The notes beneath the pieces were generated by a model, which made no database searches, was not told where the DNA came from, and saw nothing but the letters and a program-made list of their open reading frames with translations. A program made the position numbers and the translations under genes. Below are positions 1,425-26,785 of a stretch of DNA of 64,000 bases, in pieces. Source of the stretch: a virus. Every line of letters starts with the position of its first letter. Positions within the stretch are counted from its first letter, which is position 1. The DNA lies in the IMG/VR virus record IMGVR_UViG_3300044546_000330, positions 1-64,000 of that record. One strand, written 5' to 3'.

Positions 1425-1499
1425 GGAGGTATAGCTCAAGCGGTTAGAGCAGTTTCACGTTAAGTGAAAAAGATCCAGGTTCAAATCCTGGTGCCTCCA
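1425..1499 (+). tRNA. tRNA-like gene with non-canonical anticodon loop (Asn GTT or TTA, ambiguous)
   Basis: The acceptor stem GGAGGTA (1425-1431) pairs with TGCCTCC (1492-1498), discriminator A1499. The D stem is GCTC/GAGC, and the T arm is CCAGG-TTCAAAT-CCTGG (1475-1491). The anticodon arm is one nucleotide too long. TTTCAC (1453-1458) pairs perfectly with GTGAAA (1464-1469), leaving the 5-nt loop GTTAA. Opening the last C-G pair gives a 7-nt loop with G, not U, at position 33 and TTA as anticodon. Reading GTT instead gives C33 and disrupts the stem. The gene may be called tRNA-Asn or a suppressor by software, but neither reading is standard. No CCA is encoded. Confidence 0.65.
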
Positions 1500-1523
1500 C
1501 TTTAATTTACAACATCGAACATT

Positions 1524-1604
1524 ATGTGTACAATCATCAATAGCCAGAATCAACTGGTCTTCGTTGGAACGCTTAAACAGTGGCTCCAAGAAGTAAACGA
1601 TTAA
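1524..1604 (+). CDS. Possible 26-residue small protein
   Basis: An ATG 25 nt after the tRNA-like gene opens a 26-codon frame ending in TAA. It reads like a real soluble peptide (core LVFVGTLKQWLQEV), rather than low-complexity sequence. It sits alone between the tRNA-like gene and a strong hairpin, with an A-rich leader. It is too short for family recognition and could be chance. Confidence 0.3.
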   Translation: MCTIINSQNQLVFVGTLKQWLQEVND

Positions 1605-1626
1605 TAAGTCCTACCTAAGGCAACTC

Positions 1627-1655
1627 GCATCTGATACTTTACAAGTATTGGATGC
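1627..1655 (+). promoter_or_regulatory. 13-bp hairpin that buries an ATG start codon
   Basis: Bases 1627-1639 pair with 1643-1655 through 13 consecutive pairs (two of them wobble) around a 3-nt loop. The ATG at 1652-1654 lies inside the 3' strand, so it would be inaccessible when the stem forms. The next in-frame ATG is at 1685. The hairpin could act as a translational gate or as the 3' end of the upstream RNA; only TTT follows, so it is a weak terminator candidate. Confidence 0.5.
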
Positions 1656-2026
1656 TTTATAACGTCACCAATTCCTTTACATATATGACACTTCTTTACT
1701 GGTACCTAATCTTAGGTATTCCCGCTCTTTACATTTCTATGGAATCTTATCTTAGGTCTGCTGACTTTGAGAAGGAGAAATACCCTATTACAAGTATGCT
1801 CATTTCAATAGTACTCATGTACTTTTTGTGGGTAGTTGTACTTGTAGCTTGGGCAGGACTTCTCTTACGCAGGTCCAAGACTATAAGCAAGATCGCAGTA
1901 CATATCCACTTGGCTAAATGGTATCCCTTCATACTATTCTCTAGCGACAAACAATGGGGTAGACTCAAAACTCCTAAACAATGGCAATGGCTTTGCTTCA
2001 CCATAAGTTGGGAGAAACTTTATTAA
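1652..2026 (+). CDS. Small membrane protein, two hydrophobic helices
   Basis: Starting at 1652, the 124-residue product has hydrophobic stretches near residues 14-30 (LLYWYLILGIPALYIS) and 48-72 (ISIVLMYFLWVVVLVAWAGL), then a basic, tryptophan-rich tail. No family recognised. The ATG at 1652 is locked in the 1627-1655 hairpin, so the functional start may be ATG 1685 (112 aa), which keeps both helices and follows an AT-rich leader. It is isolated between a hairpin upstream and another hairpin before the next gene. Confidence 0.55.
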   Translation: MLYNVTNSFTYMTLLYWYLILGIPALYISMESYLRSADFEKEKYPITSMLISIVLMYFLWVVVLVAWAGLLLRRSKTISKIAVHIHLAKWYPFILFSSDKQWGRLKTPKQWQWLCFTISWEKLY

Positions 2027-2040
2027 ATCACACACATTTT

Positions 2041-2084
2041 GTACAACTGACAGTCCTGTGGAAGGGCAGGCTGGCAGTTAGTAC
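2041..2084 (+). promoter_or_regulatory. Long hairpin in the leader of the next gene
   Basis: GTACAACTG..CAG.CCTG (2041-2058) pairs with CAGG.CTG..CAGTT.GTAC (2067-2084): about 16 base pairs with small bulges around an 8-nt loop. It ends 22 nt before ATG 2106 and just before a CACCTTAAAAC leader. No T run follows, so it is more likely an mRNA 5' stabiliser, processing site or regulator than a terminator. Confidence 0.45.
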
Positions 2085-2105
2085 TATCACCTTAAAACGC
2101 GTACA

Positions 2106-2438
2106 ATGACGAAAGGAAAACCTACTACAGCACCTGAGAGTGGTATTAAACTGACCACATTACGCTCAGGTGGATACTTAGCAACTAGTATTTCTACCCG
2201 TGACGACTTCTTCAAAGACCCAGTCATAATACATTACCGGGACAGAGTGTTGACTTTTACTAAACCTACCTTAGCCTACAAGGGACAGACAAACAAAGCC
2301 TATGTGGGTAAAAGTCATTGTGAACTTAAGTTTATAAACTCTGAACTACGGCTAGACGTACAAGATGGCCTTTACGAGTTTGCTGAAGAGTCTGATGAGG
2401 ATACACGTATTGTTAACTTTAATACTCCTACTCTATGA
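2106..2438 (+). CDS. Hypothetical protein
   Basis: The 110-residue soluble protein has a largely beta pattern in the middle (VIIHYRDRVLTFTKPTLAYKG) and an acidic stretch near the end (FAEESDEDTR). No family recognised. The start follows the recurrent CACCTTAAAAC leader by about 10 nt. The stop overlaps the next start by 4 nt (ATGA), so it is translationally coupled to the Fis-type HTH gene and may act with it. Confidence 0.6.
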   Translation: MTKGKPTTAPESGIKLTTLRSGGYLATSISTRDDFFKDPVIIHYRDRVLTFTKPTLAYKGQTNKAYVGKSHCELKFINSELRLDVQDGLYEFAEESDEDTRIVNFNTPTL

Positions 2439-2707
2439 CATTAGATGAACTTGTCAAGGGGTTATGTATAAAGGCTTTAAAACAATCTCACAGTCAGAGA
2501 CGAGCTGCAAGACTTCTTGGCATTGCTCCGAACACCCTACACACTTATCTCAAGAAGTACAACATTGAAAACCCTTACAGACGTAAGCAGGAATCAGTTG
2601 CCGAATGGCACAATGATCAGAACTCTGGAAGCAGTACAGCTTCTCCCTTGCCCCCTCAACTGGAGCCTCTTGAACAGGTACTAACCCAAGTTCACACAAC
2701 TTTCTAA
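2435..2707 (+). CDS. Fis-type helix-turn-helix DNA-binding protein
   Basis: Residues about 13-42 (KALKQSHSQRRAARLLGIAP then NTLHTYLKKYNI) match the HTH_8 pattern at the C terminus of Fis and NtrC-family activators: an AL..S..N/R..AARLLGI..NTL...L.KY frame. The rest (about residues 50-90) is polar and Pro/Ser-rich, without an ATPase or dimerisation domain. It probably binds phage or host DNA as a small transcription or nucleoid regulator. It overlaps the upstream gene by 4 nt and is followed 11 nt later by a zinc-ribbon protein. Family assignment is good; target unknown. Confidence 0.75.
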   Translation: MTLDELVKGLCIKALKQSHSQRRAARLLGIAPNTLHTYLKKYNIENPYRRKQESVAEWHNDQNSGSSTASPLPPQLEPLEQVLTQVHTTF

Positions 2708-2717
2708 AACTTATACT

Positions 2718-3203
2718 ATGATACAGAACATCCCGGACAAAGTATGTAAGAAGTGTGGAGGTACAGAGTGGTATGGTTACCAAGTGGAAGGAAAAGATTG
2801 CCCATTACGCTACGCTTGTAAATCGTGTAAATCTAAACGTCCTAAGTTCAGAGGGGCTTGGAATACAGAAGCTAAAAAAGCTTACGATAAAGCTTACAGA
2901 GAAAAGCACAGGCAACGCCTTAACGAGAGAGCTAAACTTACCAATAAAAAGTGGCAAAAAGCTAATAGGGACAAAGTAAAGACCTACCATACAAAGTACC
3001 ACGAAAATAATAAAGACTCTATACAGGTTAAACGAAGTTTAAAAGCTAAAACTAAAGCATCTCTTATTACTAAAGTTTATGTTCAAGAGTTGATAGCTAA
3101 TAAACGTCCAATATCTGCTTCTCAAGTAGTATTATCCGATCAAGACTACGAAATGTATAAAGAAATACTCACCTTAAAACGTCAACACAATGGCAAAATT
3201 TAA
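2718..3203 (+). CDS. Zinc-ribbon protein with lysine-rich helical repeats
   Basis: The 161-residue product begins with two CxxC pairs (CKKCGG near residue 10 and CKSC near residue 34), a four-cysteine zinc ribbon. About 80 residues rich in Lys, Arg, Asn and Tyr follow, with a repeated KxYxxKY/KxWQKANRDK-like helical pattern. Such tails are common next to zinc fingers in phage DNA-binding and HNH-associated proteins, but no HNH catalytic histidines are visible. A nucleic-acid-binding role is inferred. Its 3' end overlaps the next gene by 14 nt. Confidence 0.65.
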   Translation: MIQNIPDKVCKKCGGTEWYGYQVEGKDCPLRYACKSCKSKRPKFRGAWNTEAKKAYDKAYREKHRQRLNERAKLTNKKWQKANRDKVKTYHTKYHENNKDSIQVKRSLKAKTKASLITKVYVQELIANKRPISASQVVLSDQDYEMYKEILTLKRQHNGKI

Positions 3204-3438
3204 AACAAACCCGGACTTGGTCATGCTGCAGACTATACAAGATACTACTTACACAGTAGGAAAAGAGCTTATCTCTTCTCAGTCTCGTAATCTTGCAGAA
3301 ATGAGAACAGGTCTGGCTTTTTGGGGCAAAGCTATGGTAGCCCTGCGCCTCAAGATAGTACATACAAGTACTCAAAAGCTACCATCTCCTGACTCAGTGG
3401 AAACACTTTCCCCTAAGACAGGAAAACTTTCATCTTAA
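3190..3438 (+). CDS. Hypothetical protein, 82 aa
   Basis: Small soluble protein whose first two-thirds is likely helical (LQTIQDTTYTVGKELISSQS) and whose C terminus is Ser/Pro/Thr-rich and probably disordered. Its start lies inside the previous gene, preceded by the CACCTTAAAACG leader, so the leader motif is embedded in coding sequence. This supports the start choice. Function unknown. Confidence 0.5.
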   Translation: MAKFKTNPDLVMLQTIQDTTYTVGKELISSQSRNLAEMRTGLAFWGKAMVALRLKIVHTSTQKLPSPDSVETLSPKTGKLSS

Positions 3439-3471
3439 ACTTATTACCTTCACACTTTAAAACAAAACATC

Positions 3472-4014
3472 ATGTCTACATCGACAAGGCTAGTCTGCCT
3501 TAAAAGACCAGATGGTATGATCTACCGTTTACAGCATAAAGATGCTACCGCTATTATAGCAGAAAAACCTGAGTTCAAGCTAGTATCTAAGAGTACTTCA
3601 AAAAGTTTCTACAAGAGACTTGAGCAAGTACAAAAGAACAGAGCAGAATTTGAAAGGTATCAGGTTGACTTTACTACTAATCAGAAAGTACAAAAGAACT
3701 TTGTACAAGAAGAAGATGGTAAAGTTGTGGCCTACCGCTTTAGAGGTACTAAAATGCTAACCTACGAAATGCCCGAGGATGAGAAACAAGCTGAAGAGAA
3801 GAAAACCTGGTTACAGGATATCATCGACAAAGCCTGTATTAACCCGCATGATCAGTCTATCAAAAAAAGCCTATTAGCAACTTTGCTGGCTTTCTTTGGA
3901 CTGTTTACCAAGAAGGAACTCGTTGACAAGCCTAAGACTCATTCAGTAGATTTACCACTTTATCAAAGATACATCTTTGGTTATGGTACTACTGATAACA
4001 TAAGGTACGCGTAA
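3472..4014 (+). CDS. Hypothetical protein, 180 aa, with one hydrophobic helix
   Basis: The N-terminal 115 residues are charged and mixed alpha/beta. A hydrophobic, possibly membrane-associated stretch (SLLATLLAFFGLF) lies near residues 138-150, followed by a polar tail ending in YIFGYGTTDN. No family recognised. The start follows CACTTTAAAACAAAACATC, a good copy of the local leader. The gene stands between two non-coding stretches and is followed by the structured region 4015-4151. Confidence 0.6.
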   Translation: MSTSTRLVCLKRPDGMIYRLQHKDATAIIAEKPEFKLVSKSTSKSFYKRLEQVQKNRAEFERYQVDFTTNQKVQKNFVQEEDGKVVAYRFRGTKMLTYEMPEDEKQAEEKKTWLQDIIDKACINPHDQSIKKSLLATLLAFFGLFTKKELVDKPKTHSVDLPLYQRYIFGYGTTDNIRYA

Positions 4015-4151
4015 CTTAGTCTGACTGTACAACTAAACAGTCACTACCTGTTATCTTTGTAGCCACTCAGAGCAGGTACACAACAACACGGCAGTGAAGT
4101 CTGCGAGGGAGACGTACACCTCAACTTTTTATCACCCTTTAAATAACTTAT
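4015..4151 (+). ncRNA. Four-hairpin structured leader or small RNA
   Basis: Four consecutive stems fill this gap: GACTGT/ACAGTC (4023-4042), TACCTG/CAGGTA (4045-4078), GCAG/CTGC (4091-4104) and GAGG/CCTC (4105-4122), the last followed by AACTTTTT. The gene at 4152 starts after a CACCCTTTAAATA leader. A TATCTTTG box (4052-4059) lies within the second hairpin. It may be a 5' leader that senses something, a small RNA, or only a terminator plus a promoter. Confidence 0.4.
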
Positions 4152-4415
4152 ATGAGTACTAAACAATTTCTCTCATTTATAATAGAAGACGCTACTCCTG
4201 ACGAGCTTTCAGGTAGAGGTCAAGGCAATGCTTTCTTTATTGACAGCCTAATAGAAGCTCTTTTAACTTTGAAGATAGGTCAGAAAATATCTATACCGGC
4301 AAAACAGAAGGGATGCTTACAAGCAGTGCTAAAAACACCTAAACTTGCTGAGTTTCACATAGTAAGACGTACTTCACCTGACAAGATGTTCGTCAAGCTA
4401 ATACGCGTAGCTTAG
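4152..4415 (+). CDS. Hypothetical protein, 87 aa
   Basis: Small basic alpha/beta protein with a central helix (IDSLIEALLTLKIGQKISIP) and a C-terminal strand-rich part. The pattern resembles tiny phage DNA- or RNA-binding regulators, but no motif is diagnostic. It is preceded by the recurrent leader and the 4015-4151 structured region. It converges with the minus-strand gene that ends 2 nt downstream. Confidence 0.55.
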   Translation: MSTKQFLSFIIEDATPDELSGRGQGNAFFIDSLIEALLTLKIGQKISIPAKQKGCLQAVLKTPKLAEFHIVRRTSPDKMFVKLIRVA

Positions 4416-4417
4416 TA

Positions 4418-4810
4418 CTAAGAAAAGCGAGATAAGTAAGTAAGTTGGGCACCTACACCACTAAGTTCTTGGGCTAGATTCTCGATATCGCAGTACTCTT
4501 TAACTTCTGCGTAGTCTTCTAACTTTTTCGAGGCTTTTAGTATATATTTGCCAAGCTCTTTAGGACTTAAAGCCATAACAGTACCTATTACAAACGTAGT
4601 AGGGTCTATACCGGAATAACCTATAAGCTTTTCAGTAATGTTGTCAATCAAATCGTTTAAACTATCGTATGTACGACCTAGCGCCTCATGGGCTGCAAAA
4701 GAACGAGTCTTGTAATGAGAGAGCTTAACCATTAGAAATAACTTGTGTATTTCTGTGTAAGCTGTTTGTTCTGTATACCCTACAGGTACTTTGAGCTTTA
4801 GGTCTGACAT
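4418..4810 (-). CDS. Small helical protein on the opposite strand
   Basis: From ATG 4810 the product is 130 residues and almost entirely helical. The central part (LFLMVKLSHYKTRSFAAHEA) and a later EYCDIENLAQELSG segment suggest a four-helix, ferritin/Dps-like bundle of the kind seen in small phage DUF proteins; I am not certain of the family. An upstream in-frame ATG (4873) would add a low-quality 21-residue extension, so 4810 is preferred. It is the only minus-strand gene in the early region and has its own promoter-like box 15 nt upstream. Confidence 0.6.
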   Translation of the reverse strand: MSDLKLKVPVGYTEQTAYTEIHKLFLMVKLSHYKTRSFAAHEALGRTYDSLNDLIDNITEKLIGYSGIDPTTFVIGTVMALSPKELGKYILKASKKLEDYAEVKEYCDIENLAQELSGVGAQLTYLSRFS

Positions 4811-4824
4811 AATAGTAATTTTGA

Positions 4825-4832
4825 CAAAGGTA
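4825..4832 (-). promoter_or_regulatory. Bacteroidota-type -7 box TACCTTTG
   Basis: On the minus strand the sequence TACCTTTG matches the TAnnTTTG -7 element of Bacteroidota housekeeping promoters. It lies 14 nt from ATG 4810 in an AT-rich region, and would give an almost leaderless mRNA. A convincing -33 TTTG at the right distance is not visible. Confidence 0.4.
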
Positions 4833-4936
4833 CAAAGGTCTTTATTAATATTGATAACTTTTTTAACGTACACAAATTTATGAGAAGGTGGTGTGAAACT
4901 GCCTTCTCTTTTAACCCTTTAAAACATAATAAAACA

Positions 4937-5839
4937 ATGAAGGAATTATTGCCAAAGCAATGGTGTGTTGCTTGTAAAAATAAAGATACAGACACTCCTG
5001 AACTCTTAGAATGGAGAAAGTTTGGTTGGGTAGGTAATGGATTTATTACCAATGACAAAACATGGATTGAAGACAATGATGAATCTTATGATGTTAGAAC
5101 TCTTATAGCCTACCAAACATTCTTGGACTTAGTGTATATCCCTTGGAAGTCTCGATCAGACAAGTGGGCTATTGAGATAACAGAAGAAAATCAAGACATC
5201 TTAATACCTTGGTGGAAAAAGACTAAGCCAAACTCAATGTTTGCTGAACCTATTGTAAGCTTTGTACTATTGTCAGAACATCCTACTGATAACAGCAATT
5301 ATTGGTGTGGGAATATAAAGCACTTCTTAGACAACAACTCAGAGTATAGGACTATTACATTAGAAGAATTTAAAACAATCACCTCAAAACCAATTATGGA
5401 CACTACCAAAACTATTCAGATCTCACGTGAGCTGTTAAATCAGTATTATGATGCAGCTACAGCATCCCAAAAAGAATTTATCAATGCCCGTTTTAAGATA
5501 GACGGCACTACAACAGTAGAATCTATTATTGGACTACACAAAATTGCTTGTAATGCGTGGAAAGACATCATTAAATTAAGTCATCCTAATTGTTTTCCTA
5601 CTGCTAAAACAGCTATTGAATTGGCGGTAGAAAAAGCAGGTAATCCTAATCATTCAGGTTGTACTGTAAAGATTGAAGGTAAGCATATACTTGTTAAATT
5701 ACCTAATGCTAACAGTGACTGGTCTTTTGCAGCCTTTGAGTGGGTGATGAAATTCTGTAAAGAAAATCCAACTTCTTATCCTGTTCACCGTAATGGACAC
5801 AACAACACTGACTATCTTTACATTCAATGGAATGCTTAG
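4937..5839 (+). CDS. Hypothetical protein, 300 aa, AT-rich accessory gene
   Basis: ATG 4937 is preferred over the upstream ATG 4880 because it follows ACCCTTTAAAACATAATAAAACA, the local leader. The product has a tryptophan-rich N-terminal half with a CxxC (CVAC, residues 10-13) and a separate C-terminal half (from about residue 150, IQISRELLNQYYDAATASQK) that looks like an independent helical domain. Codon choice is more A/T-biased than in the replication genes, suggesting recent exchange with other Bacteroidota phages. Function unknown. A tRNA-like gene starts 10 nt after the stop. Confidence 0.6.
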   Translation: MKELLPKQWCVACKNKDTDTPELLEWRKFGWVGNGFITNDKTWIEDNDESYDVRTLIAYQTFLDLVYIPWKSRSDKWAIEITEENQDILIPWWKKTKPNSMFAEPIVSFVLLSEHPTDNSNYWCGNIKHFLDNNSEYRTITLEEFKTITSKPIMDTTKTIQISRELLNQYYDAATASQKEFINARFKIDGTTTVESIIGLHKIACNAWKDIIKLSHPNCFPTAKTAIELAVEKAGNPNHSGCTVKIEGKHILVKLPNANSDWSFAAFEWVMKFCKENPTSYPVHRNGHNNTDYLYIQWNA

Positions 5840-5848
5840 ATGATAATA

Positions 5849-5955
5849 GGTCAGGTGGCGGAATTGGTAGACGCTAAAGTGAAGTGCATTATAGTTGATA
5901 AGCGAGTGTGATATTCGGAACTTTCAACATACAGGTTCGAATCCTGTCCTGACTG
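5849..5955 (+). tRNA. tRNA-like gene with a greatly expanded anticodon arm
   Basis: The acceptor GGTCAGG (5849-5855) pairs with CCTGACT (5948-5954; one G-T pair). The D arm is GCG-GAATTGGTAGA-CGC and the T arm ACAGG-TTCGAAT-CCTGT (5931-5947). At the correct distances from both arms, AAAGT (5876-5880) pairs with ACTTT (5920-5924) as a 5-bp anticodon stem. It encloses 39 nt instead of 7. The Leu-like D arm also allows a class II reading, with an imperfect anticodon stem (loop TGAAGTG, anticodon AAG) and a very long variable arm. Either way the molecule, about 106 nt, is abnormal and lacks U33. No CCA is encoded. Confidence 0.6.
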
Positions 5956-5986
5956 CAAAACATTATAAACAATTAAAAACAAGAAC

Positions 5987-6277
5987 ATGTTAAAAACAGA
6001 ACACCTGTCTCAAGACTGGGACACACTAGTGGTTCACACCACCCACGGAAAGCAACCTTTATCTTTAAATAAAGAAGAAGGCAGTGCTATTATTGAAGGA
6101 GATGCTTTACTAATACAAGTAGACAATGTACCTGCTCAAGGGCCCGAAGGTCAGACAATAGGAACAGTCTCTGTTAAAGAGTATATCTCCTTAGCATCAA
6201 TTGTGCAGTTTACGTTGATTAAAAAGACTATTATCCAGCCAGTACCTTCAATGGAGGGCATTAAAGAAGAAGCTTAG
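5987..6277 (+). CDS. Hypothetical protein, 96 aa
   Basis: Small acidic protein with a compact beta pattern (DALLIQVDNVPAQGPEG; SVKEYISLASIVQFTLIKK). No motif recognised. It is flanked by the tRNA-like gene at 5849 (31 nt upstream) and the folded RNA at 6278. The start follows an A-rich leader without Shine-Dalgarno. Confidence 0.55.
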   Translation: MLKTEHLSQDWDTLVVHTTHGKQPLSLNKEEGSAIIEGDALLIQVDNVPAQGPEGQTIGTVSVKEYISLASIVQFTLIKKTIIQPVPSMEGIKEEA

Positions 6278-6559
6278 TTTTGTTTCCTTGTTTTAAGGTT
6301 CAGTACTCCACACTAAGAGGTAGTGGAGCCAAGTTTATACCTATCTGGCAAATCTTAGAGTAGTATCTAAGCAGTAAAAACCTTGCCATCCGGTCAGCGG
6401 CTACGAGGCAGTGAGCCTGATAAACAAAGCTGATAACTTATAGAAACTGTAACGTGAAGTAGCTCAATAAAACCGAGAGCTCTTAGATACTTCCCAAGAA
6501 AGTAGCGCAGGGTAATACCCGTCAGTCGTAGGCCACCGGGGCGTTACAGTTTCTTTTTT
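6278..6559 (+). ncRNA. Large structured RNA candidate with a 13-bp closing helix
   Basis: No gene, but dense pairing. AGAAACTGTAACG (6442-6454) pairs perfectly with CGTTACAGTTTCT (6542-6554), followed by T-rich sequence. Inside it are GAAGTA/TACTTC (6456-6461/6488-6493), AGCTC/GAGCT (6461-6465/6477-6481) and GGG/CCC (6510-6520). The 5' part has AAGGTT/AACCTT (6295-6300/6379-6384) enclosing CTCCAC/GTGGAG and CTTAGA/TCTAAG hairpins. CCGGT (6390-6394) can pair with ACCGG (6535-6539), crossing the 13-bp helix as a pseudoknot. It does not match tmRNA, RNase P, 6S or group I core motifs that I know. It ends 6 nt before a tRNA-like gene. Confidence 0.6.
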
Positions 6560-6565
6560 AACTTA

Positions 6566-6640
6566 GGACACCTAGCTCATTGGTAGAGCATCTGAACAGA
6601 AATGTTTAGAAGGTAGAGGGTTCGATTCCCTTTGTGTCCG
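6566..6640 (+). tRNA. tRNA-like gene whose anticodon arm is a GAAA-capped stem
   Basis: GGACAC (6566-6571) pairs with GTGTCC (6634-6639); the seventh acceptor pair C-T is mismatched; discriminator G6640. The D arm is GCTC-ATTGGTA-GAGC and the T arm GAGGG-TTCGATT-CCCTT (6616-6632). The anticodon arm has an 8-bp stem, TCTGAACA (6591-6598) with TGTTTAGA (6603-6610), closed by the tetraloop GAAA. With only five pairs counted the loop would be 10 nt. No frame gives a 7-nt loop with U33, so it probably cannot decode, although the outer tRNA fold is well preserved. Confidence 0.65.
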
Positions 6641-6659
6641 CTCACTAAAAGAAATACGT

Positions 6660-6737
6660 ATGAAGAACATACACTTAATACCAACAAAAACTATAGTATT
6701 GTCCTTTATCTTACACACCTTAAACGTAAACAAGTAA
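6660..6737 (+). pseudogene. Possible 25-codon remnant or leader peptide sharing the start of the next gene
   Basis: ATGAAGAACATACAC at 6660-6674 is repeated exactly at 6753-6767, where it starts the next gene (MKNIH). The first copy runs on as MKNIHLIPTKT and stops at 6735-6737. MKNIHLIPT is, from memory, a typical start of this family of Bacteroidota phage proteins. The segment therefore looks like the original N terminus left behind after a deletion or recombination that gave the downstream gene a new start. A functional leader peptide is the alternative. Confidence 0.35.
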
Positions 6738-6752
6738 ACTATATAACACATT

Positions 6753-7574
6753 ATGAAGAACATACACAAACTAAATGAGAACATCTACATCACATCTGAT
6801 GAAGAAATTAAAGAAGGAGATTGGATGTATTACAAGCATTTTAGAGAAGATATTGTATGTAAATACGATACAATGAATGGTCAAAATACAAATGTAAATG
6901 AGCATAAACCATTCTATCAAAAAATTATTCTAACAACAGACCAAGAGTTAATCAAAGATTGTGTACAAGCTATTGATGATGAGTTCTTAGAATGGTTTGT
7001 TAATAATTCAAGTTGTGAAAGTGTAGAGGTTGACAAAAATTGGAATTACCCATTAGATAAAAGTTGGGAATACAAAATCATCATTCCAAAAGAAAAACCT
7101 AAAATTACTAATTGTGGTAATAAGAATTGTCAATCAGGTGTAATTAATGGGGTTAATCCTAAACTATGTAGAAAGTGTAATCCAAAAGAAGAACATCCTA
7201 ATCAGATTAAGTGTTATTGCGGTCACACAACAACTTGTGATTGTAGTCCATTAGAAGAACCTAAACAATTTACTCCTGAAATGTTAGTAGATTTAAAACA
7301 AGGATTAGATAATGCTATACAAAAAAGTAATCCACTGTTTCCAAACTATAAACATTTGAATAAACAAGAAACACTTGAAGAAATAAGAAAGTATGCTGAA
7401 TTGTCATATTATAATGGGGATGAAATAAACGCTTTTGTAAATGGTGCTAAATGGCAACAAGAAAGAATGTATAGTGAGGAAGACTTAAGAAATGCTTATA
7501 GGTGGGGAACTACAGTTAATCACGGAACTAAAAAACATTTTAATGAGTGGTTTAAACAATTTAAAAAGAAATAA
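6753..7574 (+). CDS. Bacteroidota-phage accessory protein with cysteine-rich middle
   Basis: The 273-residue product has an N-terminal domain (NIYITSDEEIKEGDW and KIILTTDQELIKD, then AIDDEFLEWFVNN) that I recognise as a widespread, uncharacterised domain of Bacteroidota phages. A cysteine-rich segment around residues 118-165 (CGNKNC, CRKC, CYCG, CDC) suggests zinc binding. The C terminus contains a short helical domain ending WFKQFKKK. It is AT-rich relative to the replication genes. It is followed directly by the DUF1566-type gene. Molecular function unknown. Confidence 0.65.
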   Translation: MKNIHKLNENIYITSDEEIKEGDWMYYKHFREDIVCKYDTMNGQNTNVNEHKPFYQKIILTTDQELIKDCVQAIDDEFLEWFVNNSSCESVEVDKNWNYPLDKSWEYKIIIPKEKPKITNCGNKNCQSGVINGVNPKLCRKCNPKEEHPNQIKCYCGHTTTCDCSPLEEPKQFTPEMLVDLKQGLDNAIQKSNPLFPNYKHLNKQETLEEIRKYAELSYYNGDEINAFVNGAKWQQERMYSEEDLRNAYRWGTTVNHGTKKHFNEWFKQFKKK

Positions 7575-7575
7575 C

Positions 7576-8088
7576 ATGACAGACAAAGAAAAACTCAACT
7601 ACATGAGAATAGCTTCAGCAATAGTAGGCTATGACCTCAAAGAAAAAGACCTTGATACGGTCTTATCTATCCACGATTTAGTCCTTAGAAAAGAAGGAGA
7701 AGCAGATTTAAAAGATGTCGTTAAGATTGAACATGACATTGAAAAAAAGTACAGTCAGCCTAAACCAATAATCTTAGAGCAACATCTAAAGTTTGAAGTT
7801 TACCCTAAAGACTTAGGTAAACATAATTGGGAAGATGCAAAGAAAGCATGTGAAAATTTGGGAAATGGTTGGAGATTGCCTACAAGAGAAGAGTTGCATC
7901 TGATGTGGATTAATAGAGAAAGTATTGGGAGTTTTGCCGCTGCCTACTATTGGAGTTCTAGTGAGGGCAGTTACAGCAACGCCTGGGGTCAGCTCTTCAA
8001 CGATGGCGATCACTACCTCAGCTACAAGAACTACGCCTACTATGTTCGAGCGGTTCGGGGTGTAAAACAAGACAATGTTAGAGTTTAA
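7576..8088 (+). CDS. DUF1566/C-lectin-like protein, possible diversity-generating target
   Basis: From ATG 7576, one base after the previous stop, the product is 170 residues. Residues about 75-168 match the DUF1566 (Lcl_C/FISUMP-like) pattern: WEDAKKACENLGNGWRLPT, then YWSSSE, an AW..F..G segment and a closing YYVRAVRG. This fold belongs to the C-type-lectin/formylglycine-enzyme group used as variable ligand-binding domains. The final 117 nt change sharply in base composition and consist largely of AGC, AAC, TAC, GAT and CAC codons. It could be a surface or adhesin-like protein; no signal peptide is present. Confidence 0.75.
   Translation: MTDKEKLNYMRIASAIVGYDLKEKDLDTVLSIHDLVLRKEGEADLKDVVKIEHDIEKKYSQPKPIILEQHLKFEVYPKDLGKHNWEDAKKACENLGNGWRLPTREELHLMWINRESIGSFAAAYYWSSSEGSYSNAWGQLFNDGDHYLSYKNYAYYVRAVRGVKQDNVRV
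7945..8061 (+). other. Candidate diversity-generating variable region
   Basis: The segment encoding YYWSSSE to VRAVRG is more G/C-rich than the AT-rich remainder of its gene. It is dominated by codons with A in positions 1-2 (AAC, AGC, TAC, CAC, AAG), the pattern left by adenine-directed mutagenic retrohoming. It ends in a G/C-rich stretch (CGAGCGGTTCGGGG) like an initiation-of-homing site. No reverse transcriptase or template repeat was seen in this window, so this remains inference. Confidence 0.35.
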
Positions 8089-8506
8089 CAAACCTATACC
8101 TGTAGTTGTTGAGGGCAACAAAGATGGCTATGCACTATATGTCACTAACTCAGGTATGCTTGAGAATGATGTATGGTGTGTAGTACATTGTGATGGAGGA
8201 ATAGTAAGACACTACACAACTGATCAGATAAGGATATTCCATAACGCAACTTTTAAAATCATGGCACTTAAAGAATCGTCAGCCTCTAAGAGGTACGGAC
8301 ATAGGGAAGACTGTACCCTACTGTTTGACAAACATCCACTTTTTGTAGTGGAACAGCATCACGAAGATGCCCGAGGTATTGTTTACCTAATAGGTGACAA
8401 AGAAGGGCTATTTACACTGGACGAAAAGCCTATACTAGAGGAGTCTTATTTGAGTACTATGTTAAAGGAACTCAGAGAAGAGAAGCTCCAAAAGATAAAA
8501 GAATAG
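8075..8506 (+). CDS. Hypothetical protein, 143 aa
   Basis: Soluble alpha/beta protein with a beta-rich N-terminal part (PIPVVVEGNKDGYALYV) and a charged C-terminal helix (LKELREEKLQKIKE). No family recognised. It starts 14 nt inside the end of the DUF1566-type gene and is followed by the structured RNA region, whose terminator at 8719-8757 probably ends the shared transcript. Confidence 0.6.
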   Translation: MLEFNKPIPVVVEGNKDGYALYVTNSGMLENDVWCVVHCDGGIVRHYTTDQIRIFHNATFKIMALKESSASKRYGHREDCTLLFDKHPLFVVEQHHEDARGIVYLIGDKEGLFTLDEKPILEESYLSTMLKELREEKLQKIKE

Positions 8507-8631
8507 TAAAACTATTGGCCGGTGAAGCGCAGGGAAAGGCTCTGCAAGGTTTTGGTGACCTGATGGCCCGTACCGGCCTCTCTTAAACTTAGTCAGAACC
8601 GCTGACTTAGTACTCAACCCTTCGAGTACAT
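8507..8631 (+). ncRNA. Structured RNA region before the fourth tRNA-like gene
   Basis: GGCCGGT (8517-8523) pairs with ACCGGCC (8572-8578), enclosing GCAG/CTGC and AGGT/ACCT hairpins. Two more perfect hairpins follow: AGTCAG-aaccg-CTGACT and GTACTC/GAGTAC, the latter ending at the first base of the tRNA-like gene. No open reading frame of note. As with the regions before 1425 and 6566, the folded RNA abuts a tRNA-shaped element. It may be an independent small RNA or an mRNA 3' untranslated region. Confidence 0.45.
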
Positions 8632-8712
8632 CTGCTTATCGTCTAAATCTAAGACCCTTGCTAAGCCCTGTAACAAGGCAAAGGAAATACAGGTTCATTC
8701 CTGTTAAGCAGT
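8632..8712 (+). tRNA. tRNA-like gene with a 13-nt anticodon loop
   Basis: The acceptor CTGCTTA (8632-8638) pairs perfectly with TAAGCAG (8705-8711). The D stem GTCT/AGAC (8641-8655) has a 7-nt loop, and the T stem ACAGG/CCTGT (8689-8704) a 6-nt loop TTCATT. CCTTG (8656-8660) pairs perfectly with CAAGG (8674-8678), but encloses 13 nt (CTAAGCCCTGTAA). There is no spacer base 26, and the variable region is 10 nt. This is the most divergent of the four and would not be expected to decode. A strong terminator starts 7 nt later. Confidence 0.5.
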
Positions 8713-8718
8713 TTCAAT

Positions 8719-8757
8719 AAGTGCTGTATCTCGTTAAGAGGTGCAGTACTTTTTTTT
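8719..8757 (+). terminator. Strong intrinsic terminator
   Basis: Bases 8719-8732 pair with 8738-8751 without interruption (14 bp, three wobble pairs) around the loop GTTAA, followed by a run of T to 8757. It ends the accessory/RNA region and separates it from the replication module that starts at 8782. Confidence 0.85.
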
Positions 8758-22803: not shown

Positions 22804-23036
22804 CAGAAGCAGCGGAGTTAGAACAGGAACTAGAACCTTTATTAATAGGTAAAGTAGTTCAGATAAAGTACACTCACTTTTCAAAAGAAGAACGGGTCGA
22901 GATAGATACAGTTAACCGTCTGGCTGTAGATATCGATACTAGACCAAACCATTATCTTATACTCTTTACAAATCAAGGTAAGAGACTTGAGATAAACCTA
23001 GACGATTTTTCAACACACATAAAAGTACTAAATTAA
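22800..23036 (+). CDS. Hypothetical protein, 78 aa
   Basis: Small acidic protein with a five-strand-like beta pattern (GKVVQIKYTHFSKEERVEID; HYLILFTNQGKRLEINL) resembling a small barrel. Overlaps the primase by 4 nt, and its stop TAA shares one base with the following ATG. No family recognised. Confidence 0.55.
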   Translation: MTEAAELEQELEPLLIGKVVQIKYTHFSKEERVEIDTVNRLAVDIDTRPNHYLILFTNQGKRLEINLDDFSTHIKVLN

Positions 23037-26000
23037 TGGCAATACTAGAACAAGGTACTTCGCAGATTAGCGGAGGCTTCGACAAGGGTATAGAAGAAGC
23101 CGGGAGAGATGTTATGCTTGACATCTTTCAAAAGAACCAATATCAGTACCCTGTAAAGAGTACTATTAGAGAGATAGTTTCTAACTGTGTAGACTCTATT
23201 AACGAGAGAGAAGTAGCTAAGAAGATACTGTCTGGCGCATCTGTAGTATCTGATTTCTTTGAAGACAGAGAAGGAGATGTATACAAAGACAGTAAGTTCG
23301 TACCTGAATACTATGACCCTAATTGGTTAAGCAATGATCCTACTACTTACATTACGTATTACGAAGGCGCTACTGCCGAACGGGATAGCATCTGTATTAA
23401 AGACTACGGAGTAGGACTTGGGGGAAGAAGGCTTGAGAAGTACTTTTCACTTTTCTTTAGCACTAAGAGGCTATCTAAACTACCTTTAGGTAAGTTTGGC
23501 CTTAACATACCGGGGCCGCTGTCAGGTAACTGACATGAAAATAAAGTGGGAGAATTGCTGGAAGTCTAAGTTAGTTTTACTATCTTTGTTTCCTAAACAC
23601 AACATACCATGCGACAAAGAAAAAGTCGAAGTAGAAAAAAGCACGATTATTTTTCAGTAATAGACACAGAGTTCAAAGCTTACATCCTGGGATGGATATA
23701 CGCTGATGGCACTCTTTTAAAACGTAACGGAAATAGACAGGCACTATTTTGCATATCAGTACAAGAAGAAGACGGTAAGGAGTTCTTACCTGAGCTTGCT
23801 AAAGTAGTAGCCGACAGAGTACCTGGGATACGATATTACGCAGCACAGAAGCTTAGAGGAGAAAAGCCACAGATGAGAGTAAGTATATCCTCCGATCAGA
23901 TATATGCTGACTTAGTACGTCATGGCTTACAGCAAAATAAAACTGCGTATGGCATGACTTACCCTACTACTTTACCTTCTGAACTAGAGCATCATTTTAT
24001 ACGTGGGTTCTTAGATGGGGACGGTAGTATCATGTACAGCCAAACTGTCTCTACTTATGTTCCAAAAACTAAGCCTAAGACAAACGTCTTAAGAGACAGG
24101 GGACGTATAGCCTTTATAGGAACTGATAAAGCGTTCTTAGAAGAGATACGAAAAAGACTTCCTATTACAAAGTGTTACTACGGGGGTAAGCAGTCCAAGA
24201 ACATGTTTACTCACGTACTTTGGGTTGAGCGTGCTTTAGATGTAAGAGCGTGTATAGCATACCTATATAAAGACGCCACATGGTTTTTGTCAAGAAAGAA
24301 AAGTAAAGCTGATAAGATAATCAGCAGCCGAGCCTTACGTGCAAGTAAGGAAGGTTCAGAGACTACCGGAGCAGTAGAGTCTGCTTAATAACCGGAAGTA
24401 GTATAGAGTAGTTTCTATATGAAACAGCACCCACCTCCGTGTGAAGACGCACGGATGATGATATAGTCCGACACTCTTGGAAACAAGAGATTACAGATTC
24501 GCGGTAATAAAGCGCCCTTATCTTTAGAGATGGGGTACTATACAGTAGAGTCAAGATACAACGGGCAACTGTACAGGTTCAATGTCTACAAAGGTAAGGT
24601 AGAATCTATCATACCTAAGTTTAACATAAAGACAGGGCAGGAGAACACTGCTCACGAGATGCCAACTCCCTCTGGCGTACCTTACATTTACTACAGCGAA
24701 GTCACTACTGAAAAGAATGGAGTATCTGTAATAGTAGAAGCCAAGAAACCGCATAAAGAACTGTACCGTGATGCAGTCCAATCTCAGTTGCTTTACTTTG
24801 ACAACATAAACTTTCAGATAATCAAAGAAGGGTATGTAGACCAAGTAGATTACAAAGCTGACATTATTTATGAGGATGAGTACCTTGTTATGTCTAACAA
24901 CTCTTATTACTCCAAACCCCATTTACTTCTTAACAGGGTAAACTATGGGTACATAAACTTTGGAGAGTTAGAGATACAGGACAAGATAGGTAACATTGGT
25001 ATCAAAGTACTGCCTGAAGACGTAGAGATTTCACCGTCTAGGGAATCTTTGGTGTGGAATGACAAGACTAAGGAGACTATTCTTAGTAGATTTAAGGCAG
25101 CGGTACAAAGTGCCACAGTACTTGTACAAGAAGAGCTCAAGGAAAAGGACTTTCTAAGATGGGTAAAGCTTTGCTATGGCATGCAAAACAGGTATTCAAG
25201 TGATAAGGCTAATGGCACTGTAGTGGAAAGACTGTCGTGTATCATAGATATGGCTTCTTTAGAACCCACTTATAATGGTACTGATATAAAGTTTAACCAT
25301 AACGTGCTAGACTTCCTACTCGTAGAGAAAGTAGAAATAATTAAGACTAAAAAAGCGAACAAAGTAAGTAACAAGGTAGACAGAAAAAGAGTTTACACTT
25401 TATACGATGCTATGAATTCCAAAGTAGTAATTTCTACCGGTAAGAGAAACAATCGTAAAGACAAGTACCTATTAAGTACTGCAGATAAGTTTGTACGAGT
25501 AAAACCCCCATATTGGTTAACAGAAGAGTCACAGTCTCTTAGTAAAGAGGAGTTACTTGAAACCATATTGGAAGGTTACGTTTCTGAATCGCACAAAGAA
25601 GAGATAAGAAAGAAGTTTAATGCTAACAACTCTGTTGAAGTATGGAACTTGCTAAAGTCTTCTATAGATGTGCTAGACTACGAAGCCATAGAAGTCCCTG
25701 ATAGCTTTGTCGCTTCGAACAATGAAGAAGATGAGGAGATCATAGAAACTGAGGAGGAGAAACAAGAAGCTGCTATGTCTAATGAGGAACGAAGAAAGTT
25801 ACACAACAAGGTAGTAATACACACTCCAAGATTTGTATCCGATTCTCGTGCACCTCAGTTTATAGAATGGCAGAAACTTGAAGTAACTGTAAAAGAGATC
25901 GAAGCCTGGGATGCTGCAGAAGTGTACTATGGTAACGACGTAGATGGCGATACTATTAAACTTGTAGCTATGTTGTCTCGTAAAGTGAACAATGAAAGTG

Positions 26001-26785
26001 ACTGTGTATGGCTTCCAAAAGGTGTTACTATTGAGGGCGATGCTAATCCGGGAGAAGAAGGCCACTACTCTGAATGGCGTAAATCAAAGTTTGACGAGTC
26101 CATCACAGCGGGCGTAGCATATAGGTGTTCTCATTTCTTTGACAATACGCAGATTAAACTGATAAAAGTTTCTCAACAGACTACTAAACTGTATAAGAAC
26201 TTTTACCACATAAACAAATTCTTTTACCGTTTAAACAGAGGTGTACTTACCATGAGCAATGTACTAATACAGTGGAATACTTCCCGCTTAATTAAACAGG
26301 ACCTTCATAAGTTGAACTTCTTATGGAACTATCCTTTCTCGCAAGAGAAGAAAGACCAGTTTAGAGAGATAGTAAAGTATGTCAAACTTAACTATAGGCC
26401 GATGGCAGGGTTTCAAGATAAAGGTGTTGCACCTGAAGCTTTAAACAACTTGACTGCACATCTTGATAAGGTACTGCAGTTTCAACTCTTTGTCAAAGAA
26501 GGGCATGCGTCAGAAGACATAGCTAAACTTGCTTCCGAAATGTGGGGCAGTGAATCTGTAGTTGACGGCCAGGCTATTGACATGGCAGTATGGGACAAGT
26601 TTAAAGCTTTGCTTGAGTGGTCAGAACCTATTAGAGTACTATTAAATGAGATGACAGCGTTAACAGGCATTGATGGTGTAGCTCTAACAGAAGTTGACCA
26701 ATACCAAGATAGACAAGAGTGCCTTATTAAAGAAGAACTTGAACACTCTCTTATTTCGTATATCAAGTCTAAGAACGTATCTTAG
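23036..26785 (+). CDS. rIIA: rIIA-like GHKL ATPase, interrupted by a group I intron
   Basis: Exons 23036-23502 and 24502-26785 join in frame to a 916-residue protein. Exon 1 has the GHKL N box (REIVSNCVDSI, Glu46/Asn50) and G1 box (KDYGVGL, Asp123). The junction restores the G2 box as GKFGLGNKAP. Without splicing, translation stops at 23533. The downstream part resembles the long, less conserved body of T4 rIIA (membrane-associated protein that, with rIIB, affects host range and exclusion), with an acidic linker (EEDEEIIETEEEKQE) near the middle. The rIIB-like gene follows 15 nt after. The family call rests on the GHKL motifs, size and partner. Confidence 0.8.
23581..23588 (+). promoter_or_regulatory. 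TATCTTTG box before the intron endonuclease gene
   Basis: A perfect TAnnTTTG element lies 20 nt before ATG 23609, inside the intron and downstream of P4. A TTG is 23 nt upstream. It suggests that the homing endonuclease gene has its own promoter, independent of splicing of the host gene transcript. Confidence 0.45.
23609..24388 (+). CDS. LAGLIDADG homing endonuclease encoded in the intron
   Basis: The 259-residue product has two LAGLIDADG helices, YILGWIYADGT (about residues 25-35) and HFIRGFLDGDGSI (about 129-141), so it should act as a monomer that cuts intronless rIIA-like alleles and drives intron homing. The catalytic Asp is present in both motifs. The N terminus is very basic (RQRKSRSRKK). 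The reading frame runs through the intron's Q (P4 3' strand) and R (P7 5' strand) elements and stops at 24388, so RNA-folding and protein-coding constraints overlap. Confidence 0.92.
   Translation: MRQRKSRSRKKHDYFSVIDTEFKAYILGWIYADGTLLKRNGNRQALFCISVQEEDGKEFLPELAKVVADRVPGIRYYAAQKLRGEKPQMRVSISSDQIYADLVRHGLQQNKTAYGMTYPTTLPSELEHHFIRGFLDGDGSIMYSQTVSTYVPKTKPKTNVLRDRGRIAFIGTDKAFLEEIRKRLPITKCYYGGKQSKNMFTHVLWVERALDVRACIAYLYKDATWFLSRKKSKADKIISSRALRASKEGSETTGAVESA

Follow-up and report, generated by a model that had tools for sequence, protein, structure and literature searches.

Transfer RNA (tRNA)-like RNAs that do not decode are known as single cases, namely transfer-messenger RNA (tmRNA), the bacterial Y RNA YrlA with its tRNA-mimicking domain, viral tRNA-like structures and RNAC of phage T4. 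In biotechnology, an engineered tRNA scaffold is used, with the RNA of interest inserted into the anticodon arm to aid its stability and processing. To our knowledge, no natural system has been described that uses one tRNA carrier to display many interchangeable RNA modules. Here, we analysed a 64,000-nucleotide stretch of viral DNA (positions 1 to 64,000 of the 75,340-base IMG/VR record IMGVR_UViG_3300044546_000330; hereafter, the window), in which an initial annotation had noted four tRNA-shaped loci, at positions 1425, 5849, 6566 and 8632. By gene content and a DNA polymerase distantly similar to that of crAss001, the record is assigned to the crAss-like phages. We estimate a probability of about 0.68 that the 5849 element belongs to an extensive family of non-coding RNAs (ncRNAs) in phages, in which a tRNA-Leu-derived carrier would hold an exchangeable, non-decoding module.

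The Rfam tRNA model RF00005 (cut-off of 29 bits) matched only three places in the whole record: 1425-1499 (53.3 bits), 6566-6640 (45.4 bits) and 5849-5955 (38.5 bits). ARAGORN, used as a second tRNA finder, reported 1425 as ‘tRNA-Stop’ (tta) and 6566 as ‘tRNA-???’ (gaaa), and reported neither 5849 nor 8632. The folding z-scores of 1425, 5849, 6566 and 8632 were -4.9, -1.6, -3.7 and -2.8, respectively. In the 5849 element, 56 nt lie between the D-stem and the T-stem, where the anticodon and variable arms would be. Its parts are as follows.

5849..5956, plus strand: the whole tRNA-frame element with an AGTCAGG-type frame, G73 at 5955 and C74 at 5956 (Rfam, 38.5 bits; more than 400 relatives).
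5849..5855, plus strand: 5′ acceptor strand GGTCAGG, which pairs with 5948-5954 and covaries in relatives.
5856..5874, plus strand: T8 and a tRNA-Leu-like D arm (GCG/CGC, A14, A15, G18G19, A20a), from the sequence and tallies in relatives.
5875..5930, plus strand: variable module in place of the anticodon and variable arms, with U48 at 5930, from the fold and comparison with relatives.
5894..5898, plus strand: 5′ strand of helix b, GTTGA, which pairs with 5924-5928, the helix having its 3′ end exactly 2 nt before the T-stem.
5924..5928, plus strand: 3′ strand of helix b, TCAAC, from the fold and at the same position as in relatives.
5931..5947, plus strand: T arm ACAGG-TTCGAAT-CCTGT, identical in most relatives and covarying in others.
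5948..5954, plus strand: 3′ acceptor strand CCTGACT, from Rfam and relatives.

The elements of this family share with class II tRNA-Leu the D arm GCG/CGC, A14, A15-U48, A20a, A73 and a long variable region, whereas their anticodon arm is missing or non-canonical and their acceptor is AGTCAGG in place of the usual G1-C72 type. Like tmRNA, in which a long insert with pseudoknots stands for the anticodon arm, they have a tRNA-like acceptor/T-arm domain; however, they are far shorter (about 70–210 nt), retain a D-stem and carry U3-A70 instead of G3-U70, the alanine identity pair. Since they also lack a tag reading frame and gave no Rfam tmRNA match over the cut-off, identity with tmRNA was rejected. 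A weak Rfam tmRNA match below the cut-off (18.9 bits) was seen elsewhere, in a phage tRNA array (L070:1916-2038). A tRNA containing a group I intron was likewise rejected, given that the inserts, which replace the anticodon and variable arms, have a median length of about 60 nt and no Rfam intron match; the modules also matched no known Rfam module. Unlike YrlA, the elements showed no Rfam Y RNA match, although no search was made for a Ro60/Rsr partner gene. The engineered scaffold differs in that the elements are natural, occur in phages and comprise hundreds of modules, with a second site in the D loop. RNAC and RNAD of T4 (species 1 and 2 stable RNAs) are also phage-encoded stable RNAs located beside tRNA genes, and their function is unknown (PMC9697503). 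RNAC (139 nt) has at its end a T arm of consensus type, CCGGG-TTCGAAT-CCCGG, with a short closing stem after it. A T arm is shared with the elements, but the D arm of the T4 RNAs is not recognisable (in RNAC it is absent) and no sequence similarity between RNAC and the elements was seen; moreover, RNAC and RNAD occur in one copy each and in other hosts, and no constant carrier with exchangeable modules has been shown for them. A full-text literature search, which did not extend to preprints and closed-access papers, returned no description of the family; it is apparently an undescribed phage RNA family.

The only close relative found for the window record was L004. After the same gene, L004 carries an element that has the acceptor and T arm of 5849 (GGTCAGG ... 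CCTGTCCTGACTGC) but differs in the D loop and has just 15 nt or so in its centre, and a further copy two hundred bases on has a centre of about 160 nt. According to the initial annotation, a homologue with a normal 7-nt anticodon loop at the same locus would speak for simple decay or a sequencing error; the centre of the L004 homologue proved to be different and equally abnormal. The centre has therefore been exchanged, with the ends and flanks left in place.

The 3′ end of the 5849 element, GGTTCRAATCCTGTCCTGACT, was found in at least 120 IMG/VR contigs, many of which held several copies (2–7 copies in many of the fetched loci). At a distance of 60–210 nt upstream, almost all copies had the complementary acceptor strand and most had a Leu-like D arm as well. 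The collection amounted to 501 elements (428 distinct) from 275 loci, nearly all of them sharing the frame AGTCAGGTGGCGGAATTGGTAGACGC...ACAGGTTCGAATCCTGTCCTGACTAC. When the 5′ end only was used for scanning, the exact partner CCTGACT was present, at variable distance, in 94 of the 118 elements with a recognisable T-arm. Some genomes contained 8–14 copies, 14 being the highest number, and two records (G033 and G009) had elements and lacked any normal tRNA. Across 84,980 cellular genomes, the pattern occurred in 6 contigs, all from metagenome-assembled genomes and mostly from Bacteroidota. Neither the AGTCAGG frame nor module K (described below) was matched in 50,697 GenBank phage records, and whole stretches of the window used as queries against GenBank phages gave no match either.

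Comparison within the family shows that the carrier is kept, including the 7-bp acceptor, the D and T arms, U8-A14, A15-U48, A73 and C74, with helices that compensate. The acceptor, D and T arms have tRNA geometry, as judged from the RF00005 matches and covariation, and the acceptor is near-constant in the elements, while it is diverse in normal phage tRNAs. In family F1 (A1), all 126 of 126 cells were paired, changes on both sides were seen at 10 of 21 pairs, and none of 500 shuffles was as good. Family F4 (A7) was collected by module sequence and is thus unbiased for carrier pairing; 99.2% of its cells were paired, 33 cells had double changes, and again 0 of 500 shuffles were as good. The corresponding values for Fpk (A6) were 96.8% paired, 8 pairs with double changes and 0 of 500 shuffles. 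Compensatory changes in the acceptor and T arms, which the initial annotation had proposed looking for in related genomes, are thus present in relatives of 5849, including the module-seeded family F4. Decoding is a different matter: a hairpin of at least 5 bp at the anticodon position was found in only 54 of 303 elements, and very few had a 5-bp stem and 7-nt loop with U33, whereas the normal tRNAs of the same phages mostly have this canonical arm. Selection for the tRNA outline without decoding, which had been suggested for all four loci, is strongly supported for 5849 by its hundreds of relatives, and is not shown for 1425, 6566 and 8632.

The module is hypervariable between elements, folded, and conserved within families. 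Among 378 distinct elements, the inserts formed 278 clusters, and an insert family was shared by only 2 of 322 within-locus pairs. Helix b reached p ≤ 0.1 against dinucleotide shuffles in 45% of 134 inserts, a marked excess over such shuffles, and its 3′ strand ended 2 nt before the T-stem in 48 of the 73 relatives with a strong helix; the base preceding the T-stem was T in 134 of 137 cases (U48 of the A15-U48 Levitt pair). The F4 module has a 4-bp stem at the anticodon position, whose first pair was seen as AU, CG, UA and GC and which carries an invariant 12-nt loop, ATGGTTATAGCA. Modules also form hairpins that are specific to their family, and those of some families, such as Fpk, likely contain a pseudoknot.

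Modules are also swapped between identical flanks, and one module can sit on carriers with differing acceptors. Between flanks that are the same or almost so, four loci (L099, L118, L128 and L071) carry four inserts unrelated to one another, and L022 and L046 have identical flanks, even to the off-consensus CCTGACG in both, and unrelated inserts. Conversely, similar inserts despite different flanks were found in 115 pairs. The F4 and Fpk modules occur with the acceptors AGTCAGG, AGTGAGG, AGTCAAG, ACTCAGG, GCTCAAG, AGAAGAG and AGTAGAG, the 3′ strand compensating each time. A further pair, L024 and L051, was considered as compensatory acceptor variants of one insert and set aside, since parts of it are open in one frame and its nature is ambiguous. 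The D-loop hairpin GGAGGGTGGTGTCCATCCTCG occurs with two different modules (L265 and L294), and the D loop therefore offers another place for insertion. Of the 15 contigs with module K (AAAACAAAGGGCAGRGCACAA ... GGAACTTCCATTAC), 11 have it on the tRNA carrier; L021, L252 and L255 have it on plain stems without the tRNA frame, and in L249 it sits on half a carrier with a T-run behind it. Its presence on plain stems is the strongest sign that the module is an autonomous RNA, with the tRNA as its carrier.

The elements occupy gaps between genes and share the strand of those genes; often, a stop codon lies 3–19 nt before them and an ATG 14–33 nt after them. Their leaders (-1T, -2A and -4A at frequencies of.72,.68 and.67, respectively) resemble those of 407 normal tRNAs from the same loci (.69,.64 and.68), a -1U/-2A/-4A pattern that we take to be an RNase P signature. 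On the 3′ side, A73 was present in 87% and C74 in 97%. Because a Bacteroidota -7 box (TAnnTTTG) was enriched within 12 nt upstream (22 elements against 3.6 expected), some elements are probably transcribed on their own. The position and the leader, together with the diversity of the downstream genes, would suit the role of processing punctuation that the initial annotation had offered. If this were the only role, the outline would be kept for RNase P/RNase Z cuts in the polycistronic phage RNA, and the centre could change without constraint. Conserved, swappable and structured inserts are left unexplained by it: module stems show compensatory changes, the loop ATGGTTATAGCA is invariant and other cores are conserved, a conserved helix lies 2 nt before the T-stem, module K exists without the tRNA frame, and many elements are clustered and do not precede a gene. 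As the only function, punctuation is thus unlikely. Resistance to anticodon nucleases, another role suggested at the outset, is not favoured.

A second explanation places the activity in the conserved part (A73, U8-A14, A15-U48, A20a and the large variable region), so that a leucylated decoy would bind leucyl-tRNA synthetase (LeuRS) or EF-Tu, or would give leucine off the ribosome, the centre merely blocking decoding. Sequence features of tRNA-Leu identity are kept in the family (A14 in 93%, A15-U48 in 227 of 278, A20a in 77%, and a large variable region), and A15-U48 accompanies A73 in 45 of 45 normal phage tRNA-Leu. In bacteria, leucine identity is set by A73, core tertiary pairs, A20a and the large variable region; the anticodon plays no part in it, and leucylation can proceed in the absence of the anticodon arm (PMC9976931). 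Aminoacylation with leucine is therefore plausible for elements of this kind, but it is not claimed for 5849 because of its G73; A73 is missing in about 13% of elements, including 5849. In addition, A15-U48 is common in other phage tRNAs (168 of 340), and the same modules are also found on plain stems and on carriers that lack Leu features or have a different acceptor, which makes a decoy of this type quite improbable as the whole account. Both punctuation and the leucylated decoy account for some of the data, whereas the occurrence of conserved modules on several carriers is explained by neither.

Cassette-like swapping at fixed flanks and the 115 pairs with similar inserts and different flanks would also be expected of a selfish mobile RNA element, whose constant arms would be homology or retro-mobility ends of no benefit to the phage. 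However, no reverse transcriptase, transposase or common gene is associated with the elements, no flanking repeats were seen in the flanks inspected, and the structure is under purifying selection; we consider this explanation very unlikely. Decay of tRNA genes that lost their anticodon arm and are drifting, for which the few members with intact anticodon arms (L056 and L089) and the resemblance of 6566 to tRNA-Phe could be cited, is scarcely credible and already contradicted for the 5849 family by compensatory changes, module cores conserved from phage to phage, the presence of several copies where a phage has no other tRNA, and a constant acceptor as opposed to the diverse acceptors of normal phage tRNAs, while it is possible for 1425, 6566 and 8632.

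The reading that we prefer is a tRNA-Leu-derived carrier with an exchangeable module. Host RNase P and RNase Z would cut the elements from polycistronic phage transcripts, the excised elements would gain CCA, and the tRNA fold would stabilise the RNA. The elements would be unable to decode; they may be leucylated by LeuRS, for which the anticodon is not required, and may be bound by EF-Tu. The module would then be the working part, and its rapid replacement would fit an arms race. The likeliest function for it is that of a decoy or aptamer directed at host factors, in takeover or counter-defence, though this, the least certain step, is itself rather doubtful. A broader picture, likewise tentative, is that the natural tRNA carrier of Bacteroidota phages, with its two mounting sites at the anticodon position and in the D loop, would be a general platform on which an extensive repertoire of functional modules, shared horizontally, is displayed. 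Matured by the tRNA enzymes of the host and perhaps leucylated, these RNAs would be the equivalent, at the RNA level, of gene cassettes for anti-defence.

Several points weigh against the preferred reading, which is drawn from sequence throughout. The carrier is near-constant in part through ascertainment, because the elements were gathered by exact patterns and most tallies required pairing; only the module-seeded families are exempt. A few members with the same carrier have a normal anticodon arm (L056, a tRNA-Lys, and L089); as L056 illustrates, the carrier is therefore able to serve a real tRNA too. The free folding of the inserts is only modestly above that of shuffled sequences (mean z of -0.63), and a pseudoknot in which helix a crosses helix b was not significant over the whole family, so that a universal pseudoknot was dropped, although it is well kept in Fpk. 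Neither antisense targets nor a common neighbouring gene was found for the modules: complementarity of the inserts to their own neighbourhood equalled that of shuffled inserts (8.78 and 8.78 nt), on which ground a role as antisense guides was rejected, and a link to one downstream gene was rejected with 134 clusters among 159 downstream ORFs. The discriminator of 5849 is G and not A, which counts against leucylation of this copy, and 1425, 6566 and 8632 remain orphans without demonstrated relatives.

If the preferred reading is true, a whole class of phage ncRNAs has been overlooked because tRNA finders call such elements broken or ‘undetermined’ tRNAs. It would also mean that the tRNA scaffold of biotechnology has a precedent in nature, and would suggest a testable answer to what stable non-tRNA RNAs do in phage tRNA clusters (T4 RNAC/RNAD), a question half a century old. 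The hundreds of RNA modules, which possibly bind host or defence factors, would then constitute a ready-made library.

The remaining three loci and an adjoining hairpin are as follows.

1425..1500, plus strand: tRNA-shaped gene with a 6-bp/GTTAA arm (or 5 bp and CGTTAAG, with TTA and G33); orphan (Rfam, folding).
6566..6641, plus strand: tRNA-shaped gene with a GAAA-capped 8-bp arm at 6591-6610; orphan (Rfam, folding).
8632..8712, plus strand: weak cloverleaf-like fold with a 6-nt T loop, not recognised as a tRNA (structural scans, folding).
8717..8757, plus strand: strong terminator-like hairpin and T-run directly 3′ of the 8632 fold (z of -7.1).

None of the four loci is able to decode normally, as the initial annotation had concluded from the lack of a 7-nt loop with U33; its description of 1425 needs amendment, because the arm can be drawn with 6 bp and GTTAA or, equally, with 5 bp (TTTCA/TGAAA) and the 7-nt loop CGTTAAG. 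In the latter drawing, the ‘anticodon’ is TTA and position 33 is G. An ochre suppressor tRNA was considered and rejected; 1425 is unlikely to be a working suppressor because of G33 and because TAA is the stop codon used most often in the window (by 23 of the 42 ORFs that are 100 aa or longer). The 8-bp arm of 6566 is TCTGAACA/TGTTTAGA with its GAAA cap, and the nearest normal tRNA is tRNA-Phe(GAA). An exact-pattern search for relatives of 1425 and 6566 yielded none, and four unlike ones. In other phages (L306, L307 and L308), the T arm and acceptor end found in 6566, GGGTTCGATTCCCTTTGTGTCC, have a long unusual region upstream of them.

At 8632-8711, a perfect 7-bp acceptor and a 5-bp T-stem are present, yet the T-loop has 6 nt and the D-loop lacks GG, and neither Rfam nor ARAGORN reported the locus. 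Dinucleotide-shuffled genomes contained 0.25 such folds each in a strict structural scan and about 3 in a looser one. All four outlines had been called convincing; this holds for 1425, 6566 and 5849 by Rfam, but not for 8632, with its 6-nt T-loop and a fold of a kind that also arises by chance, whose status as a tRNA is doubtful. A strongly folded intergenic stretch lies nearby at 8507-8575.

Other conserved or folded RNAs were observed in the window. Directly upstream of 1425, positions 1150-1424 contain a second conserved phage RNA with the core YTCCCAAGRGTGAGCAGTTGTAA ... TTACAACTGAGTGCAGAGGGA and variable hairpins; it was also found in L008 (minus strand), L028:2755, L093:1298 and 2443, L238:2678, L156:9223 and L198:7126, and had no match in the 50,697 GenBank phage records. 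An intergenic RNA at 6298-6420 and L004:5521-5690 has conserved outer parts, with compensatory changes (CTCCAC/GTGGAG and CTCTAC/GTAGAG), and a replaced inner part. It is followed at 6420-6556 by a strongly folded intergenic stretch closed by GAAACTGTAACG/CGTTACAGTTTC, with a T-run just before 6566. Among the proteins, that encoded at 7492-8088 has the C-terminal sequence WSSSE...YYVRAVRG and scattered residue differences from its L004 counterpart, a pattern reminiscent of the variable proteins of diversity-generating retroelements. Finally, the gene at 23036-26785, with an ATPase-like start at 23036 and a continuation at 24530-26785 that has a weak RIIA-like match, is split at 23609-24388 by an insert that is probably a homing endonuclease.

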